From positions 3,520,104 through 3,584,103 of the forward strand of contig NZ_CP011503.1 of the NCBI RefSeq assembly GCF_001028665.1: a DNA stretch of 64,000 nt, in the 5' to 3' direction. Below, piece by piece: positions 1,628-11,167 of the stretch. Position 1 is the stretch's first letter, and the number at the start of each line of letters is the position of its first letter. The position numbers and the translations under genes were made by a program. This stretch comes from Burkholderia pyrrocinia. GTDB lineage: Bacteria > Pseudomonadota > Gammaproteobacteria > Burkholderiales > Burkholderiaceae. The notes under the pieces are model-generated. The model searched no databases, was not told where the DNA came from, and saw nothing but the letters and a program-made list of their open reading frames with translations.

Positions 1628-2332
1628 TCAGGCGCCGCCGAACACTTCGCGCAAATCGACCTGCCCTTGCGCGGGCCGGTCCAGCATCTTCAGTTCGACA
1701 TGCTGCAGGTGGTGCGCCATCAGCGTCACCGCCCGCTTCGGATCGCCCGCCTCCAGCGCGGCGAGGATCTCGTCGTGGTCGTCACACGAACACGGGCTGC
1801 GGCCGTGTGATTCGTACAGCGCCGACATCAGCGTCGAGCGTGCGACGAGCCCTTCGAGGCACTCGCTGAGCGTCGCATTGCCCATCAGCGTGGCGAGCGC
1901 CGTATGGAATTCGCCCGACAGGCGGATCCATGCCGCGAAGTCGTGCCGCTCGAACGCCTTGCGTTCCTTGTCGATCAGCGCGGCGACGCCCTTCAGCCGC
2001 TTCGCGCCGGGCCCGGCCGCGAGCCGCTCGACCACGGCGAGCTCGATGATCCGGCGCATCTCGAACACCTCGTGCACGTCCTGCAGCGTCGGGCTCGCGA
2101 CGAACGCACCGCGGTTCGGTTCGAGTTCGACCAGCTTGTCGGTCGCGAGCTGCGCGAGCGCCTGGCGAATCGTCCCGCGCTTCACGCCGAACACGTCGCA
2201 GAGCTGCGCCTCCGTCAGCTTCGCGCCGGGCGCGAGCCGATGCTCGAGGATCGCCGTGCGGATCCGCTCGGCGATCGCTTCGGGACTGGCTGCACCGGAC
2301 GGGTGGGAATCGGCCTCGTTCATGATCTGCAT
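1628..2332 (-). CDS. GntR-family transcriptional regulator, FCD subfamily
   Basis: DNA-binding regulator of 234 residues. A winged helix (about residues 19-80, with the recognition helix around FGVKRGTIRQAL) is followed by an FCD ligand-binding helical domain (about 90-220) that in this family often binds a carboxylate with a metal through Asp/His residues. It sits 149 bases upstream of the NCS1 permease in the same direction and probably controls that gene and itself. Two copies of a FadR-type palindrome, TTGTNNACAA, lie 36 and 180 bases upstream of the start, as expected for autoregulation. The effector is unknown. Confidence 0.85.
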   Translation of the reverse strand: MQIMNEADSHPSGAASPEAIAERIRTAILEHRLAPGAKLTEAQLCDVFGVKRGTIRQALAQLATDKLVELEPNRGAFVASPTLQDVHEVFEMRRIIELAVVERLAAGPGAKRLKGVAALIDKERKAFERHDFAAWIRLSGEFHTALATLMGNATLSECLEGLVARSTLMSALYESHGRSPCSCDDHDEILAALEAGDPKRAVTLMAHHLQHVELKMLDRPAQGQVDLREVFGGA

Positions 2333-4951: not shown

Positions 4952-6190
4952 TCACGCGGCTAACGTTTCCGGCCGCGCTTTCGCAAACGGGCGGAACATC
5001 ATCGCGATCAGAAACGCGCCGAGACCGATCGCGAACGAACCGATGTACAGCCGGCCGTAGCTGCCGAACGTATCGACGATCAGGCCGCCGGCAACCGGCC
5101 CCGCGGCCATCCCGAGGCTGCCGGCCATCGCGCAGCCGCCGATCACGGTGCCCATCATCCGCAGCGGGAAGTTCTCGCGCGCGAGCACCGAATACAGCGG
5201 CATCACGCCCGCATAGATGAAGCCGAACAGCGTCGCGACCGCGTAGAACCCGTCGAGCGTGCGCACGAAGTAGTAGCCGAGCGCGCCCAGCGCCTGCGCG
5301 AGCAGCCCGGCCACCAGCATCCGCTTCGCGCCGACGCGGTCGCCGAGGAGGCCGAACACGATCCGGCCGCCCATGCCCGCGAGCCCTTCGACGCTGTAGA
5401 TCGACACCGCGACGATCAGCGGGATCCCGCACGTCACCGCGTAGCTGACCGTATGGAAGATCGGGCCCGAGTGGGTCGCGCAGCAGAAGAAATTGGTCAG
5501 CACCAGCACCATGAACTGCGGCGAGCGCAGCGCGTCCGCGACCGACATCGCCGCGGGCGCGCCGGCAGGCTGAGGCGCCGCGTGCGCGCGGTCGAGCGCG
5601 GGCGCCCTGCGCACCAGCAGCGACACCGGGATCATCACGACGGCCGCCAGTGCGGCGACGAGCAGCATCGACGTGCGCCAGTCATGCGTCGATACGAGCC
5701 ACGCGGCCAGCGGCGACATCGTCATCGGCGCCATCCCCATGCCGGCCGACACGAGCGACACCGCCAGGCTGCGGTGCGTGTCGAACCAGCCCGTCACGCA
5801 CGCCATCATCGGCGCGAACACCGCGGCCGTCGCGCTGCCGACGGCAAGGCCGAAGGTCAGCTGGAACGCGAGCAGCGACGGCGCGCGGCTCGCCAGCGCG
5901 AGGCTCGCCGACAGCAGCACGGCGCCCGTCATGACGACCGCGCGCGCACCGATGCGGTCCGACAGGCTGCCCCACCCCATGCTCGCGAAGGCCATCGCGA
6001 TGAAGCCGAGCGTCATCGCGCCGGAAATGCCGGTCATCGACCAGCCCGTGTCGCGCGCAATCGCGCGCAGGAACACCGGCAGCGAAAACATCGCGCCGAT
6101 CGCGAGGCAGCCCATCAGGCCGCCCGCGGCGACGATCACCCAGCGGTATCGGGAATCCGGCATTTGGCGTCTCCTGTCTCGTTTCGGCAA
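4952..6190 (-). CDS. Major facilitator superfamily transporter
   Basis: Twelve-helix inner-membrane carrier, 412 residues from the first ATG, or 403 from MPDSRYRW at 6163, which is the likelier start because the first nine residues are only charged. The loop GSLSDRIGARAV between helices 2 and 3 is the MFS signature, and GLLGDRVGAKRM repeats it in the second half. It resembles the oxalate/formate-antiporter or monocarboxylate branch, but the substrate cannot be deduced. It diverges from the GntR/UTRA regulator at 6531, so it may be the transporter for the redox operon on the other side; this is inference from gene arrangement. Confidence 0.85.
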   Translation of the reverse strand: MPKRDRRRQMPDSRYRWVIVAAGGLMGCLAIGAMFSLPVFLRAIARDTGWSMTGISGAMTLGFIAMAFASMGWGSLSDRIGARAVVMTGAVLLSASLALASRAPSLLAFQLTFGLAVGSATAAVFAPMMACVTGWFDTHRSLAVSLVSAGMGMAPMTMSPLAAWLVSTHDWRTSMLLVAALAAVVMIPVSLLVRRAPALDRAHAAPQPAGAPAAMSVADALRSPQFMVLVLTNFFCCATHSGPIFHTVSYAVTCGIPLIVAVSIYSVEGLAGMGGRIVFGLLGDRVGAKRMLVAGLLAQALGALGYYFVRTLDGFYAVATLFGFIYAGVMPLYSVLARENFPLRMMGTVIGGCAMAGSLGMAAGPVAGGLIVDTFGSYGRLYIGSFAIGLGAFLIAMMFRPFAKARPETLAA

Positions 6191-6530
6191 TCCTCGGGAA
6201 CCGCGCTACTGCGGCGCCGCACGGCGGCCTGCCCGGCTGCCGCATCAACGCTGTCGCAAGCCTGGTCGACATGGATACGACGGGCGACGCATCGGGAAAT
6301 CGACATGCGCGCCGCACGCGCCGGCGAATTTTTTTGATTGTCGGCCAATCCGCGCGACTGGCAAGGAGCGGATCGTTCGAACACCGGACGCCGGACGCCG
6401 GATCGCCCGTTCTGCCCACTGCCTGCCTCCCCGCTTTTCCGGATTCGGAAAGTCGAAATCAGAAATGGTTGGTTTGGACACCCGATCGAGCCGGCTACAC
6501 TCGAACCATCTTGTCATAACAAGTTGACCG
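6191..6530. other. Divergent regulatory region, MFS gene / GntR-UTRA operon
   Basis: 340 bases without a gene separating two divergent transcription units. It holds the palindrome at 6510-6523 just before the GntR start and a weaker five-base inverted repeat GATTG/CAATC at 6336-6350 nearer the MFS gene. No clear promoter boxes could be assigned. Confidence 0.5.
6510..6523. promoter_or_regulatory. Putative operator of the GntR/UTRA regulator
   Basis: CTTGTCATAACAAG: arms CTTGT and ACAAG around four bases, ending seven bases before the ATG at 6531. Position and symmetry suggest autoregulation by the HutC-type GntR protein. Confidence 0.5.
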
Positions 6531-7301
6531 ATGACCCCACCCAACGTCGTGCCGCTGTCGGCGGCCCCGCTCTACGTGCAGATCAAGGACACGCTGCGCG
6601 TGCGCATCCTCGACGGCACTTATGCGCCGCACAGCCGGATGCCGTCCGAGCACGAACTCTGCGCGATGTTCGACGTCAGCCGCATCACGGTGCGCCAGGC
6701 GCTCGGCGACCTGCAGAAGGAAGGCCTGCTGTTCAAGCTGCACGGCAAGGGCACGTTCGTGTCGAAGCCGAAGGCGTTCCAGAACGTGACGTCGCTGCAG
6801 GGGTTCGCCGAGGCGATGTCGACGATGGGCTACGAGATCGTCAACCAGTTGCGCAGCTTTCGCACCGTGAAGGCCGACCGCCATCTCGCGACGAAGCTGA
6901 ACGTGCCGGAAGGCGCGCCGCTCGTCGAGATCCACCGCGTGCGGCTGCTGAACCGCGAGCCCGTGTCGCTCGAACAGACCTGGGTGCCCGAAGCGCTCGG
7001 CAAGCGCCTCGCGGGCGCCGATCTCGCGACCCGCGACATCTTCCTGATCCTCGAAAACGACTGCGGCATCCCGCTCGGTCATGCCGACGTGTCGATCGAC
7101 GCGATCCTCGCCGACGACGAGATCGTCGATGCGCTGCACGTCGAGGAAAGCAGCCCCGTGCTGCGTATCGAGCGCCTCACGCACGACGCGTCGGGCACGC
7201 CGATCGACTACGAATACCTCTACTTCCGCGGCGACGCCTTCCAGTACCGGTTGCGCATCGACCGGCAGAAGGCGCGCAAACCTGCAAGGAACTCGCGATG
7301 A
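6531..7301 (+). CDS. GntR-family transcriptional regulator, HutC/UTRA subfamily
   Basis: 256-residue regulator: an N-terminal winged helix (about 12-80; PSEHELCAMFDVSRITVRQAL contains the recognition helix, here quoted as FDVSRITVRQAL) and a UTRA ligand-binding domain (about 95-245). UTRA domains bind small effectors such as sugars, amino acids or carboxylates. It is first in a plus-strand operon and its TGA overlaps the ATG of the flavoprotein gene by four bases, so it is translated together with the enzyme it probably controls. A palindrome directly precedes its start. The effector is unknown. Confidence 0.88.
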   Translation: MTPPNVVPLSAAPLYVQIKDTLRVRILDGTYAPHSRMPSEHELCAMFDVSRITVRQALGDLQKEGLLFKLHGKGTFVSKPKAFQNVTSLQGFAEAMSTMGYEIVNQLRSFRTVKADRHLATKLNVPEGAPLVEIHRVRLLNREPVSLEQTWVPEALGKRLAGADLATRDIFLILENDCGIPLGHADVSIDAILADDEIVDALHVEESSPVLRIERLTHDASGTPIDYEYLYFRGDAFQYRLRIDRQKARKPARNSR

Positions 7302-9037
7302 ATACCCATGTGCACGAATACGACGTCGTCGTGGTCGGCGGCGGCACGGCCGGCCCGATGGCGGCGATCAAGGCGAAGGAACGCGACCCGTCCCTGCGCG
7401 TGCTGCTGCTCGAAAAAGCCCACGTGAAGCGCAGCGGCGCGATCTCGATGGGGATGGACGGGCTGAACAACGCGGTGATCCCCGGGCATGCGACGCCCGA
7501 GCAATACACGCGCGAGATCACGATCGCCAACGACGGCATCGTCGACCAGGAAGCCGTGCACGCGTATGCGACGCACAGCTTCGCGACGATCGAACAGCTC
7601 GACCGCTGGGGCGTGAAGTTCGAGAAGGACGGCACCGGCGACTACGCGGTGAAGAAGGTCCATCACATGGGCTCGTACGTGCTGCCGATGCCGGAAGGAC
7701 ACGACATCAAGAAAGTGCTGTACCGGCAACTGAAGCGCGCGCGCATCGCGATCACGAACCGGATCGTCGCGACGCGCGTGCTGACCGATGCGCACGGACG
7801 TGCGAGCGGCGTGCTCGGCTTCGACTGCCGCACCGCGGCGTTCCACGTGATCCGCGCGAAGGCCGTGATTCTCTGCTGCGGCGCCGCAGGCCGGCTCGGG
7901 CTGCCGGCGTCGGGCTACCTGATGGGCACGTACGAGAACCCGACCAACGCAGGCGACGGCTATGCGATGGCCTATCACGCCGGCGCCGCGCTTGCGAATC
8001 TCGAATGCTTCCAGATCAATCCGCTGATCAAGGACTACAACGGCCCCGCATGCGCGTACGTGACGGGCCCGCTCGGCGGCTTCACCGCGAACGGCAAGGG
8101 CGAGCGCTTCATCGAATGCGATTACTGGAGCGGCCAGATGATGTGGGAGTTCTACCAGGAACTGCAAAGCGGCAACGGCCCCGTGTTCCTGAAGCTCGAC
8201 CATCTCGCGGAAGAAACGATCCGGACCATCGAGCAGATCCTGCACACGAACGAGCGGCCGAGCCGCGGCCGTTTCCATGCGGGGCGCGGGACCGACTACC
8301 GACACCAGATGGTCGAGATGCACATCTCCGAGATCGGCTTCTGCAGCGGCCACAGCGCGTCGGGCGTGTACGTGAACGCCCGCGCGGAAACGACCGTGCA
8401 GGGACTCTACGCAGCCGGCGACATGGCGGCCGTCCCGCACAACTACATGCTCGGCGCGTTCACGTATGGCTGGTTCGCCGGACAGAACGCGGCCGACTAC
8501 GTGGCCGGCCGCGACCATGCACCGGTGGACGACGAACAGGTCGACGCCGAGCGCGCCCGCGTGCTCGCCCCGCTGTTTCGCGAGCGCGGCCTGGCGCCGG
8601 CGCAGGTCGAATACAAGCTGCGCCGCCTGGTGAACGACTACCTGCAACCGCCGAAGGTGACCCGCAAGATGGAAATCGGACTGCAACGTTTCGACGATAT
8701 TACGGAGGATATCGAAGAGATAAAGGCGAGCCATCCTCACGAACTGATGCGCGCGGCTGAAGTTCGAGCGATCCGCGACTGCGCCGAAATGGCCGCCCGC
8801 GCGTCGCTGTTTCGCACCGAGAGCCGCTGGGGGCTGTATCACCATCGCGTCGACTTTCCGCACCGCAACGACGCCGAATGGTTTTGTCACACCTGGCTGC
8901 GCAAGGATGCCGACGGCGCGATGCGCAGCGAGAAGCGGCCGGTCGAACCGTACATCGTGCCGCTTGCCGACGACGAACGCAGCGCCTACGCGCATCTGCG
9001 CATCCGCGAACCGGCCGCACTCTCGGCCGCCCTTTGA
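7298..9037 (+). CDS. FAD-dependent oxidoreductase, AprA / fumarate reductase flavoprotein-like
   Basis: 579-residue flavoprotein. VVVVGGGTAGPMAA near residue 11 is the FAD dinucleotide-binding motif; GLYAAGD near residue 370 is the second FAD contact. The C-terminal part with RWGLYHHRVDFP resembles the alpha subunit of adenylylsulfate reductase (AprA) more than succinate dehydrogenase. The next gene encodes a two-cluster ferredoxin, as in AprBA, so the pair probably forms an electron-transferring complex. No other sulfate-reduction genes are nearby, so true APS reductase activity is unlikely and the substrate is unknown. ATG overlaps the regulator's stop (ATGA). Confidence 0.85.
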   Translation: MNTHVHEYDVVVVGGGTAGPMAAIKAKERDPSLRVLLLEKAHVKRSGAISMGMDGLNNAVIPGHATPEQYTREITIANDGIVDQEAVHAYATHSFATIEQLDRWGVKFEKDGTGDYAVKKVHHMGSYVLPMPEGHDIKKVLYRQLKRARIAITNRIVATRVLTDAHGRASGVLGFDCRTAAFHVIRAKAVILCCGAAGRLGLPASGYLMGTYENPTNAGDGYAMAYHAGAALANLECFQINPLIKDYNGPACAYVTGPLGGFTANGKGERFIECDYWSGQMMWEFYQELQSGNGPVFLKLDHLAEETIRTIEQILHTNERPSRGRFHAGRGTDYRHQMVEMHISEIGFCSGHSASGVYVNARAETTVQGLYAAGDMAAVPHNYMLGAFTYGWFAGQNAADYVAGRDHAPVDDEQVDAERARVLAPLFRERGLAPAQVEYKLRRLVNDYLQPPKVTRKMEIGLQRFDDITEDIEEIKASHPHELMRAAEVRAIRDCAEMAARASLFRTESRWGLYHHRVDFPHRNDAEWFCHTWLRKDADGAMRSEKRPVEPYIVPLADDERSAYAHLRIREPAALSAAL

Positions 9038-9048
9038 GGAGCCTTACC

Positions 9049-9294
9049 GTGCCCCATACCCCGCACGACATCTTCCAGCGCAGCAGCGCGCCCGTCACGA
9101 TCGACGAGGCACTGTGCATCGCCGACAAGGGCTGCACCGTCTGCGTCGACGTGTGCCCGCTCGACCTGCTCGCGATCGACGTGACCAAGGGCAAGGCCTA
9201 CATGCAGTTCGACGAATGCTGGTACTGCATGCCGTGCGAACGCGATTGCCCGACCGGTGCGGTCAAGGTCGACATCCCTTACCTGCTGCGCTGA
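9049..9294 (+). CDS. 4Fe-4S dicluster ferredoxin, AprB-like
   Basis: 81-residue ferredoxin starting at GTG 9049, preceded by GAGGAGCC that overlaps the end of the flavoprotein gene. Eight Cys for two [4Fe-4S] clusters: 23, 29, 32, 36 (GCTVCVDVCP) and 57, 60, 63, 67 (CWYCMPCERDCP). The aromatic pair between the second set resembles AprB. It most likely carries electrons to or from the AprA-like subunit. It lacks the C-terminal tail that wraps AprA in sulfate reducers. The AprB-like resemblance is from motif layout, not from a search. Confidence 0.85.
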   Translation: MPHTPHDIFQRSSAPVTIDEALCIADKGCTVCVDVCPLDLLAIDVTKGKAYMQFDECWYCMPCERDCPTGAVKVDIPYLLR

Positions 9295-9452
9295 CCGGGC
9301 GCGCGGCCGATCTTCGTCGTGCCGCCCGCGCTGGCCGTGCATCGACGACGTGACGGCCGGTCGGCGCTCGCCAGGTTCGCGCCGCCATACCGCGCCGCCG
9401 ATGCACCGCGTTCCGTGAGCAGCCGCCCTTTCATCGAACCGACCTTTTGCCC

Positions 9453-10454
9453 ATGACCGCTTTCTCTTCCACCTCCTCGCTGCCCGGCACGCACGATCCG
9501 GATCTTGCCGCACTCGTCGCCCGCCTCGCTGCGCCCGATGCATCCGTGCGCCGTATTGCACTGCTCGAACTCGCCGATCTCGAGGAATCCGATCTCGTGC
9601 CCGCGTTCGTCGCGGCGCTGCGCGACGACCCGTCGGCCGACGTGCGCAGCGAGGCGGCCCGCGTCCTCGGCGAATGGGAACAGCCCGACGTCGTCGACGC
9701 GCTGTGCGGCGCGCTGCTCGACCCGGACGACGGCGTGCGCGCCACTGCCGCGCAGAGCCTGTCCGAACTGAAGGACGCGGCATCGGGTACCGTGCTGTGC
9801 AGCTGGGCCGACCGGCCCGAGCCGTTCGTGCGCAGTGCCGTGCTGCGCGGGCTGCGCGAGTTGCGCGTCCCCGATGCGTTCGCGCCTGCACTGCATGCAC
9901 TCGACGCCGACACCCCGGCCGTGCGCACCGAGGCGGCAGCCGTGCTCGGCTGGCTCAAGGATTCGCGCGCGCTGCCGCTACTCGCACGCATCGCAACGGC
10001 CGACGCCGATGCGGACGTGCGCCGTATTGCGGTCGGTGCGATCGGGTTCGCGACACCCGGCGACACGACCGTCGTCACCGCATTGCTCGTGGCACTGCGC
10101 GACGCAGCATGGCAGGTCCGCGAGGAAGCGGCCGCAACACTCGGCAAGCTGCGCGTTGCGGACGCGCGCGCACCGCTCGTTGCCGCGCTCGACGACGATT
10201 ACTGGCAAGTGCGCTTGCGTGCCGTGCGCGCGCTCGGGCAGCTGCGCGATGCTACCGCGGCGCAGGCCGTCGTCGCGCTGCTCTCGCATGCGATCAGCAA
10301 TCTGCGCAAGGAAGCCGCGCTTGCGCTCGGCGAATTGCGCGACCGCTCGACACTTCCCGCGCTGCACGACGCACTGGAGGATCGCGACCCCGAGGTGCGC
10401 AAGGCGGTGCGGATCGCGATCGGACAGATCGGGCTACTCGGGGAGAGGCAATGA
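9453..10454 (+). CDS. HEAT-repeat (PBS-lyase type) protein
   Basis: About 333 residues built almost wholly of 30-residue alpha-helical repeats of the form D..VR..A...LG.., for example VRSEAARVLGEW, VRTEAAAVLGWL, VREEAAATLGKL and VRKAVRIAIGQIG. This is the bilin-lyase/HEAT fold, a protein-binding scaffold with no catalytic residues of its own. I start at ATG 9453; a TTG at 9447 is in frame. It lies 158 bases after the ferredoxin and overlaps the DUF971 gene by ATGA. In this operon it could be an assembly factor or adaptor for the flavin/Fe-S enzyme; that is inference. Confidence 0.85.
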   Translation: MTAFSSTSSLPGTHDPDLAALVARLAAPDASVRRIALLELADLEESDLVPAFVAALRDDPSADVRSEAARVLGEWEQPDVVDALCGALLDPDDGVRATAAQSLSELKDAASGTVLCSWADRPEPFVRSAVLRGLRELRVPDAFAPALHALDADTPAVRTEAAAVLGWLKDSRALPLLARIATADADADVRRIAVGAIGFATPGDTTVVTALLVALRDAAWQVREEAAATLGKLRVADARAPLVAALDDDYWQVRLRAVRALGQLRDATAAQAVVALLSHAISNLRKEAALALGELRDRSTLPALHDALEDRDPEVRKAVRIAIGQIGLLGERQ

Positions 10455-10792
10455 CGCCGCCGACCGAGATCGCGCTCGATTACGCGGCCCGTGCATTGAC
10501 GCTGCGCTGGCCGGGCGGCGACATGCAGTGCATCGGTTACGCACGATTGCGCAGCGACTGCCCGTGTGCCGCATGCCGAAAGATCCGACTCGACGGACAC
10601 GTTGTCGACGCGATGCCGAACCTGACGCTGGACGGCTTGGAACCGGCCGGTTACGGCATCCGCCTGCTGTTCGGCGACGGTCATGCGCGCGGCATCTATC
10701 CGTGGCCGTATCTGATGGAACTCGGCAAGCGCGAGACGGATGCGGACATCGCGGCGCATTGCATCTGCACATCTGGTGATCTCGCAGGCTGA
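10451..10792 (+). CDS. DUF971 (gamma-butyrobetaine hydroxylase-like N-terminal domain) protein
   Basis: 113 residues matching the small DUF971 domain: DYAARALTLRWPGG at the start and GIYPWPYL near the end. Cys37, Cys39 and Cys42 (CPCAACR) and the late HCIC (Cys104, Cys106) are candidate metal ligands. DUF971 is found alone, fused to Mrp/ApbC Fe-S carriers, or at the N-terminus of gamma-butyrobetaine hydroxylase, where the Cys/His set binds zinc. The start ATG overlaps the HEAT gene stop (ATGA), so the two are translationally coupled. A role in cofactor assembly for the upstream oxidoreductase is plausible but not shown. Confidence 0.85.
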   Translation: MTPPTEIALDYAARALTLRWPGGDMQCIGYARLRSDCPCAACRKIRLDGHVVDAMPNLTLDGLEPAGYGIRLLFGDGHARGIYPWPYLMELGKRETDADIAAHCICTSGDLAG

Positions 10793-10861: not shown

Positions 10862-11167
10862 CGCCGCGATACCGCCGAAGAGACGACCGTCGACGTCGAA
10901 GCGCTGGACGCCTTTACCGCACTGGATGCCTTCGATTACGATGCCGACGGCGGCGTGCGCCAGCATTTCATCATGGTCGCGGTGCTGTGCAGACGGTTGC
11001 GCGGCACGCCCGCCGCCGGCGACGACGCGCTCGACGCGCGCTGGTTCGGCCTCGCCGAACTCGATCGCGACGACTTGCCGATGAGTGCGGGTGTCCGCGA
11101 CGTCGCGCGACGGGCGATCGAACGGGCCGCGGGCCTTGGCAATGCGCAGCGTCCATCAACTACTTGA
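10862..11167 (+). pseudogene. NUDIX hydrolase remnant, 5' truncated
   Basis: Frame-open segment whose translation contains RRDTAEETTVDVE, the second half of a NUDIX box (RExxEExGU, with RE changed to RR), then the usual LDAFDYDADGGVRQHFIMV and GDDALDARWFGLAEL, where families of this type have GDD/GEE-ARWF. The first half, including the Gx5E part of the box, is absent: only about 70 bases separate it from the DUF971 stop. The only start inside the frame is a GTG at 10955, after the catalytic motif. It is therefore judged a dead gene, probably once the last gene of the operon. Confidence 0.6.

Follow-up and report, generated by a model that had tools for sequence, protein, structure and literature searches.

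An AprBA-like flavoprotein and ferredoxin module of Burkholderia pyrrocinia and its possible role in sulfur scavenging

Gene content and recurrence of the module

The locus analyzed in this study lies in a 64,000-nucleotide stretch of the Burkholderia pyrrocinia genome (contig NZ_CP011503.1, positions 3,520,104-3,584,103; hereafter the window) and comprises five genes encoding a GntR/UTRA regulator, a flavin adenine dinucleotide (FAD) protein resembling AprA, a two-cluster ferredoxin resembling AprB, a HEAT-repeat protein, and a DUF971 protein. Judged by comparison with related loci, the core of this module consists of the FAD subunit, the ferredoxin, and the HEAT protein, which is fused to the FAD subunit in actinobacteria. 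Many versions add an ATP-binding cassette (ABC) importer of the SsuA/TauA type and either DUF971 or an Mrp-type iron-sulfur (Fe-S) carrier. The module is real, conserved, and so far uncharacterized, and a link to sulfonates was predicted earlier in print.

The locus had been described in an earlier note, made from the DNA letters and their open reading frames (ORFs), as a tight five-gene operon. The ORFs, their coordinates, the ATGA overlaps at 7298 (GntR/flavoprotein) and 10451 (HEAT/DUF971), and the ferredoxin start 11 bases beyond the flavoprotein stop at 9035-9037 all stand, but the HEAT gene begins 158 bp beyond the ferredoxin gene, which is the one loose joint among the five. The window gave no Rfam match at gathering scores.

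Table 1. Positions of the module genes and of further features in the window
Feature	Position	Strand	Evidence
GntR/UTRA (HutC-type) local regulator	6531..7301	+	UTRA 134.8 bits, GntR 73.9 bits
AprA-like FAD flavoprotein (NF006131/PRK08275), candidate catalytic subunit	7298..9037	+	FAD_binding_2 and Succ_DH_flav_C; 1146.5 bits vs curated cut-off 587
AprB-like 2x(4Fe-4S) ferredoxin, 81 aa	9049..9294	+	GTG start; 4Fe-4S dicluster domain
Spacer between ferredoxin and HEAT genes, importer site of relatives	9295..9452		Without recognizable importer remnant
HEAT-repeat protein, separate counterpart of the PRK13800 HEAT half	9453..10454	+	HEAT_2 202 bits
DUF971/GBBH-like_N protein, CPCAAC motif	10451..10792	+	PF06155 59.1 bits vs gathering score 22.8
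Palindrome CTTGTCATAACAAG, probable GntR operator (autoregulatory)	6510..6523		Recurrence before GntR and single genomic site
Divergent transporter of the major facilitator superfamily (MFS)	4952..6163	-	Nearest L-lactate MFS family SfMCT, 160.3 vs cut-off 320 bits
Remnant resembling the C-terminal portion of a NUDIX-domain ORF	10865..11161	+	75% identity over 100 aa to locus L033
FCD-type GntR regulator	1628..2332	-	

Three sets of loci were compared, namely 80 Burkholderiaceae loci, 33 further loci outside these 80, and 14 control windows drawn from the same 14 genomes as loci L112-L125 only. ORFs in flanks and controls were predicted with a codon-usage caller; the flank scan covered all 102 ORFs of 14 loci, and the control protein scan covered 102 of the 170 predicted control ORFs. 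Among the Burkholderiaceae loci, the flavoprotein was accompanied by the ferredoxin in 80, by GntR and HEAT in 79 each (the contig ends in the one remaining HEAT case), and by DUF971 in 76. Where at least 7 kb lay downstream (73 loci), HEAT and DUF971 occurred in 73 and 72, respectively. Homologues of the flavoprotein, ferredoxin, and HEAT protein were found together in 33 of the 33 further loci, a homologue of the importer's substrate-binding protein (SBP) in 29 (at 30% identity or more; L136, with 25%, was scored as lacking it), and DUF971 in 23. On these comparisons the clustering of the module genes is not chance, and the co-occurrence elsewhere that the earlier note implied extends across phyla.

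Matches exceeding the cut-off of NF006131, the NCBIfam family of the flavoprotein, were found in 15 of 299 Pseudomonadota genomes sampled and in 45 of 65 from Burkholderia, each count including B. pyrrocinia itself. Of 72,556 plasmid records, 53 gave a tblastn match with E no higher than 1e-60, 48 of them with at least 80% coverage. The closest relatives of the flavoprotein are Burkholderia proteins with up to 97% identity, and the family is conserved at 59-65% identity as far as the cyanobacteria and actinobacteria among the plasmid matches. Viral contigs, scanned with the window protein alone, gave no match. On the Acidithiobacillus caldus SM-1 plasmid pLAtc3 (L142), about 148 flavoprotein residues match after GntR and are followed by an ISL3-type transposase, apparently an insertion-disrupted copy. 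On a Nostoc edaphicum plasmid (L136), genes for HAD hydrolases, a methyltransferase, GNAT, and VOC proteins separate the flavoprotein from the ferredoxin, and an amidase, metX, and an O-acetylhomoserine sulfhydrylase-type gene lie in the surroundings, possibly as parts of an extended organosulfur pathway.

Counted over the 90 loci with a GntR of 40% identity or more to that of the window, 72 have the palindrome CTTGTNATNACAAG no more than 300 bp ahead of GntR. Of 21 loci listed individually, 12 are without it; in 7 of these GntR has 45-63% identity, a range in which no listed locus has the palindrome, and in the other 5 it has 65-73%. In the 7.96-Mb genome it is unique, with its sole site at the position in Table 1. 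Since the single genomic palindrome recurs before GntR, the latter is probably a dedicated, autoregulated local regulator with the palindrome as its putative operator.

The flavoprotein family, its partners, and its neighbors

NF006131 is a family without known substrate, and the flavoprotein remained below the cut-offs of aprA (176.6 vs 641.75 bits), SdhA/FrdA TIGR01812 (167 vs 567.3 bits), and NadB TIGR00551 (113.2 vs 452.75 bits). The best NCBIfam match of the ferredoxin was aprB with 38.1 bits, under the cut-off of 135.65, and its 8 Cys were invariant in 20 of 20 aligned rows. Among solved structures, the nearest relatives of the flavoprotein are the 3'-phosphoadenosine-5'-phosphosulfate (PAPS) reductase 8a8o (E 3.6e-57, profile 6.3e-81) from Methanothermococcus thermolithotrophicus (MtPAPSR), followed by adenosine-5'-phosphosulfate (APS) reductases. 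The two proteins thus resemble an AprBA-type pair, as had been suggested from the DNA alone. Predicted structures were too poor for use, with a mean predicted local distance difference test score of 51.8 for the flavoprotein and 58.7 for a fusion of which the HEAT half alone was well predicted. The region PP_0204-PP_0210 of Pseudomonas putida KT2440 is presumably orthologous to the module, with PP_0206 as its ferredoxin. According to PMC6066579, ferredoxin PP_0206 of P. putida is up 7.5-8.5-fold under zinc.

A tree of 44 rows was computed from 29 family members, 12 AprA proteins, MtPAPSR, and the SdhA and NadB of B. pyrrocinia itself; the rows of SdhA, NadB, and MtPAPSR are long, and the tree is rooted for drawing only. 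The 29 family rows and the 12 AprA rows each formed one clade with 100/100 support, and MtPAPSR grouped with AprA, apart from the window family. The flavoprotein had been expected to lie outside families of known substrate, and this holds both for its NCBIfam membership and for its own clade beside AprA and PAPS reductase.

In the residue alignment, read without the own-SdhA row and the AprA rows L159 and L160, R265 and W234 of Archaeoglobus fulgidus AprA correspond to Leu243 and Tyr212 in the window family, both invariant in 29 of 29 rows. N74 corresponds to an invariant N57, and the equivalent of the catalytic His of AprA is kept as an invariant H352. MtPAPSR retains both the Arg and the Trp, whereas the window family has neither. 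The His of the SdhA/NadB FHPT motif is Asn241 (compared with Escherichia coli SdhA and own NadB), and the Arg of the NadB motif GANRLASNS has no counterpart (compared with own NadB). The functions of these Arg, Trp, Asn, and His residues in AprA and of the catalytic His and Arg in SdhA and NadB are taken here as assumed. The flavin surroundings of the family thus seem AprA-like and its substrate site different, an arrangement conserved across three phyla. The database label of fumarate reductase or succinate dehydrogenase was rejected on the scores, the residues, and the tree.

The flavoprotein and the HEAT protein each match separate parts of one natural fusion, NF010374/PRK13800, of which the HEAT protein covers positions 601-894 (it is below the cut-off for the whole protein, as expected of a part). 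On a Tsukamurella plasmid, the NF010374 fusion (893 aa, 1568 bits) lies beside GntR, ferredoxin, and ABC importer genes, and the fusion matches listed (120 of 6929 proteins) carry FAD and HEAT domains. Because both proteins match one fusion, the HEAT protein most likely acts on the flavoprotein as its partner. It had been proposed as one half of a dedicated pair with DUF971; this pairing is not upheld, as 6 of the 7 named plasmid loci from alphaproteobacteria have the DUF971 gene upstream of that for the flavoprotein and the seventh has none. Nor is the CPCAAC motif indispensable, since CxCxxC is kept in 15 of 20 aligned DUF971 rows and gone in 5.

The DUF971 protein is similar to PDB entries 3luu and 2l6p. 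In 4 of 4 cyanobacterial loci, HEAT is followed among the listed genes by that for an Mrp/NBP35 Fe-S carrier, which overlaps the HEAT gene in 3 and lies 246 bp off in Nostoc, and no DUF971 homologue was found in these loci, which make up 4 of the 10 DUF971-less loci among the 33. None was found in two actinobacterial loci either. Three Mrp proteins that were scanned contain FeS_assembly_P and ParA domains without DUF971. In the Fe-S factor HCF101 of plants, Mrp and DUF971 are parts of a single chain, from which a role of DUF971 in Fe-S loading can reasonably be inferred. The cofactor-assembly role first assigned to HEAT and DUF971 together is therefore plausible for DUF971, with Mrp/NBP35 in its stead in cyanobacteria, but not with HEAT as its specific partner.

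Three ABC importer genes lie between the ferredoxin and HEAT genes on plasmids of Paraburkholderia sprentiae, Cupriavidus pinatubonensis, Aquabacterium olei, and Acinetobacter baumannii, and an SsuA/TauA-type importer (SBP and ATPase) was present in 31 of the 80 Burkholderiaceae loci. Among 17 Burkholderia loci (L032-L048), it occurred in 5 and was absent from 10, with a 64-residue SBP remnant in L039 and too short a contig in L041. The window DNA aligned with both importer flanks in L032, L036, L038, L043, and L047, and the window spacer had no significant match to importer proteins (best E 0.17). An orthologue of the importer missing from the window locus was not found elsewhere in the genome, in which the best-scoring SBP match had 29% identity and 13 matches at E 1e-10 represented other SsuA-type proteins. 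The flank alignment and the patchy presence make it probable that the importer belonged to the module from early on and was deleted in the window lineage, apparently with more than one loss among relatives.

For three SBPs tested, the SsuA and taurine families were the best matches, no nitrate or bicarbonate family was matched at E 0.001, and the nearest PDB chains were SsuA 2x26 and TauA 6ssy. The SBPs L021:10049-11476 and L134:2990-4456, both scanned with Pfam, combine an SsuA-type domain with a weak NosL-like C-terminal domain (PF05573), in which no Cys or Met is common to all 17 aligned rows. Cyanobacterial modules contain a LysR-family regulator of about 665-680 aa (L134:7676-9676, and similarly annotated in L135 and L137). 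The C-terminal half of the L134 protein matches SsuA-type SBPs, so that it may sense an imported sulfur compound directly.

Genes related to electron supply and sulfur were found near the module in the 33 further loci. Ferredoxin-NADP reductase occurred in 6 of 14 genome loci and in 2 of 8 and 0 of 11 plasmid loci (8/33), FdxA in 4 of 14, 2 of 8, and 1 of 11 (7/33), and a YeiH-type exporter in 3 of 14, 3 of 8, and 0 of 11 (6/33), each with 0 of 14 in the control windows. In Methylobacterium radiotolerans, FdxA and ferredoxin-NADP reductase lie directly behind the importer. These two neighbors point to electron input. TauE/SafE and YeiH-type exporters adjoin 3 of 4 cyanobacterial modules and TauE/SafE adjoins the Aquabacterium module, which suggests that sulfite is the product; the annotation of YeiH goes no further than putative sulfate exporter, and its sulfite role is presumed here. 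The Nostoc module is surrounded by sulfonate binding proteins and metX/metY. Among sulfur monooxygenases near the 80 Burkholderiaceae loci, DmoA-like genes occurred in 9 and SfnB-like genes in 4 (each 0/14 in controls), and LLM2 in 10 (1/14 in controls). These loci belong to Paraburkholderia, Caballeronia, and Burkholderia sp., and the counts were not used as proof.

The divergent MFS gene had been named as a possible supplier of the substrate. It was kept in 16 of the 80 Burkholderiaceae loci, all of them Burkholderia, and therefore lies outside the conserved module, so that it was ruled out in this role; the conserved transporter is the SsuA/TauA-type ABC importer. The MFS adjoining the P. 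sprentiae module shares merely 24% identity over 96 aa with that of the window. The partner logic thus differs from that of the earlier note, as sequence comparison pairs HEAT with the flavoprotein and makes an ABC importer, in place of the MFS, the transporter of the module.

Outside the module, a NUDIX-domain ORF sits between DUF971 and a GNAT gene in Burkholderia relatives. It appears truncated to the remnant listed in Table 1, with about 1.1 kb less DNA in the window than in L033. An FCD-type GntR regulator is encoded farther upstream.

Proposed function and alternative explanations

The chances are considered evenly balanced that the module is a conserved sulfur-scavenging AprBA-like reductase, which would transfer NADPH-derived electrons onto a sulfonate-type anion and release sulfite; we infer both the substrate and the direction. 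The importer would bring the sulfonate-type sulfur compound into the cell, electrons would pass from NADPH through ferredoxin-NADP reductase and FdxA to the module ferredoxin and on to FAD, and the FAD subunit would attack or reduce the compound. Sulfite would then be set free for assimilation, with TauE/SafE or YeiH exporters as a possible overflow in some hosts. The HEAT protein would serve as a docking or stabilizing partner of the FAD subunit, DUF971 (or Mrp) would help to load the Fe-S clusters, and GntR probably binds the single palindrome and controls this operon alone. With the importer absent from B. pyrrocinia, most likely through deletion, substrate would have to reach the enzyme via another transporter or from inside the cell.

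A stronger form of this reading is put forward tentatively and is itself rather unlikely. In it, an AprBA-like complex of FAD protein and ferredoxin would act as a widespread reductive desulfonase that does without oxygen. The complex would cleave the S-C (or S-N, S-S) bond of an imported sulfo-compound by way of an adduct of flavin and sulfite, HEAT would be its docking subunit, and DUF971 or Mrp would be the dedicated factor for Fe-S loading. Most hosts are known as aerobes, together with cyanobacteria, and assimilatory desulfonation by SsuD, TauD, and their relatives needs oxygen. If true, a ferredoxin-fed flavoenzyme would represent a second desulfonation chemistry in soil and aquatic sulfur cycling, encoded on many plasmids, and would explain a family still labeled fumarate reductase/succinate dehydrogenase in databases.

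Several observations weigh against the reductase. The invariant replacement of both the Arg and the Trp of AprA means that the sulfur group would have to be activated in another way than in APS and PAPS reductases, and the lost Arg is the main difficulty for reductive desulfonation. Reductive cleavage of a C-S bond is also harder than that of the activated bond in APS. The importer is absent from 10 of the 17 loci of Burkholderia and from the majority of the 80, which speaks against a strict pair of import and enzyme, and the three tested SBPs scored 112.4, 133.6, and 116.7 bits against SsuA_fam (TIGR01728), below the cut-off of 163.5. Ferredoxin-NADP reductase, FdxA, and YeiH were near the module in 0 of the 80 Burkholderiaceae loci, so that their support comes from other relatives only, and the neighbor counts outside Burkholderiaceae are raw counts without a significance test from small samples in which some loci are closely related. 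TauD made up 4 of the 102 proteins in the flanks and 2 of the 102 in the controls, and was not taken as support. A second SsuBC-type transporter pair showed no clear enrichment with 13 of 113 near modules against 1 of 14 controls, two of the 13 (L138 and L139) being the modules' own divergent importers. The literature searched, which left aside supplements and most subscription journals, contained no expression, phenotype, or enzyme data on the module that could be found, and no paper characterizing its enzyme or a measured reaction. In the parts of PMC8557817, PMC10708946, and PMC3511301 that were available the module is not treated, and the available part of PMC3826726 is not relevant.

A fumarate-reductase-like enzyme is an improbable alternative, in which C-C or C-N redox chemistry on the skeleton of an imported sulfonate or carboxylate would leave the sulfur untouched. 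The shared superfamily, with FAD_binding_2 and Succ_DH_flav_C domains, and the retained catalytic His (H352) agree with it, but the scores against the SdhA/FrdA and NadB models lie far below their cut-offs, Asn241 takes the place of the FHPT His, and the NadB Arg is without counterpart. At the same low level of probability stands a substrate free of sulfur, for example another small oxoanion (such as nitrate, bicarbonate, or cyanate) or else an organic acid. In its favor, the permease of L021 scores 149 bits with NtrB and 136 bits with SsuC, the L021 ATPase is similar to each of TauB, SaoA, and NtrCD, and the module SBPs, with about 470-490 aa and the weak NosL-like domain in L021 and L134, are unlike ordinary SsuA. 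This proposal is opposed by the SBP searches, in which SsuA_fam and the taurine families came first and nitrate or bicarbonate families did not appear, and by the sulfur-related neighbors in several phyla.

Somewhat less probable still is a role in sulfite handling, in which flavin-bound sulfite arising from sulfonate mono- and dioxygenases would be oxidized or trapped and the cell thereby protected. Sulfite/sulfate-exporter genes lie nearby in some hosts, and an FAD-sulfite intermediate has been proposed for the AprA-type MtPAPSR (PMC10322725). However, oxidation dependent on adenosine monophosphate is unlikely with the Arg and Trp replaced, the ferredoxin-NADP reductase and FdxA neighbors suggest electron input, and a substrate from outside is suggested by the importer that many versions carry. 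A true APS or PAPS reductase is hardly credible despite such enzymes being the nearest solved relatives, and was rejected on the aprA and aprB scores, the separate clade, and the loss of the conserved Arg and Trp.

Comparison with known systems

A 2025 paper (PMC12375680) lists in a figure legend a ferredoxin/APS reductase/GntR module with a NirT/TauT sulfonate transporter as cargo of 'Fervidacidithiobacillus caldus' plasmids, carried by pAca1.1, pTcM1, pTC-F14, and one metagenome contig, and the sections available predict organosulfonate assimilation for two operons of pAca1.1-family plasmids. As matched in this analysis, this cargo is apparently made up of the same genes as the window module, with 69% identity between the pTcM1 and window flavoproteins. 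It differs in that the treatment in those sections is annotation only, without mechanism, family-wide analysis, or test (PMC12375680). The matches listed include a fusion from Rhodococcus wratislaviensis whose database entry bears the name 'Putative reductase (alkanesulfonate metabolism)'. To call the redox pathway undescribed, as had been done, was therefore too strong.

MtPAPSR is likewise composed of an FAD alpha subunit and a small ferredoxin-like beta subunit with two 4Fe-4S clusters, and an attack of FAD-N5 on the sulfur is its proposed mechanism (PMC10322725). The Asn and His at the flavin are conserved in both. The window family differs from it by Leu243 for Arg and Tyr212 for Trp, by its separate clade, and by its HEAT and DUF971 proteins and, in many relatives, a sulfonate-type importer.

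With dissimilatory AprBA the module shares the two-subunit architecture and the equivalents of N74 and H398 (a number assumed here), namely N57 and H352. It differs in scores below the aprA and aprB cut-offs, in the lost Arg and Trp, and in a shorter beta subunit, with 81 aa compared with 132 aprB model positions. The actinobacterial NF010374/PRK13800 fusion differs by its single chain in place of the separate genes of the window and by the two loci in which a DUF971 homologue was not found, while it resembles the module in combining the same flavoprotein (59% identity in Tsukamurella) with HEAT, alongside GntR, ferredoxin, and importer genes.

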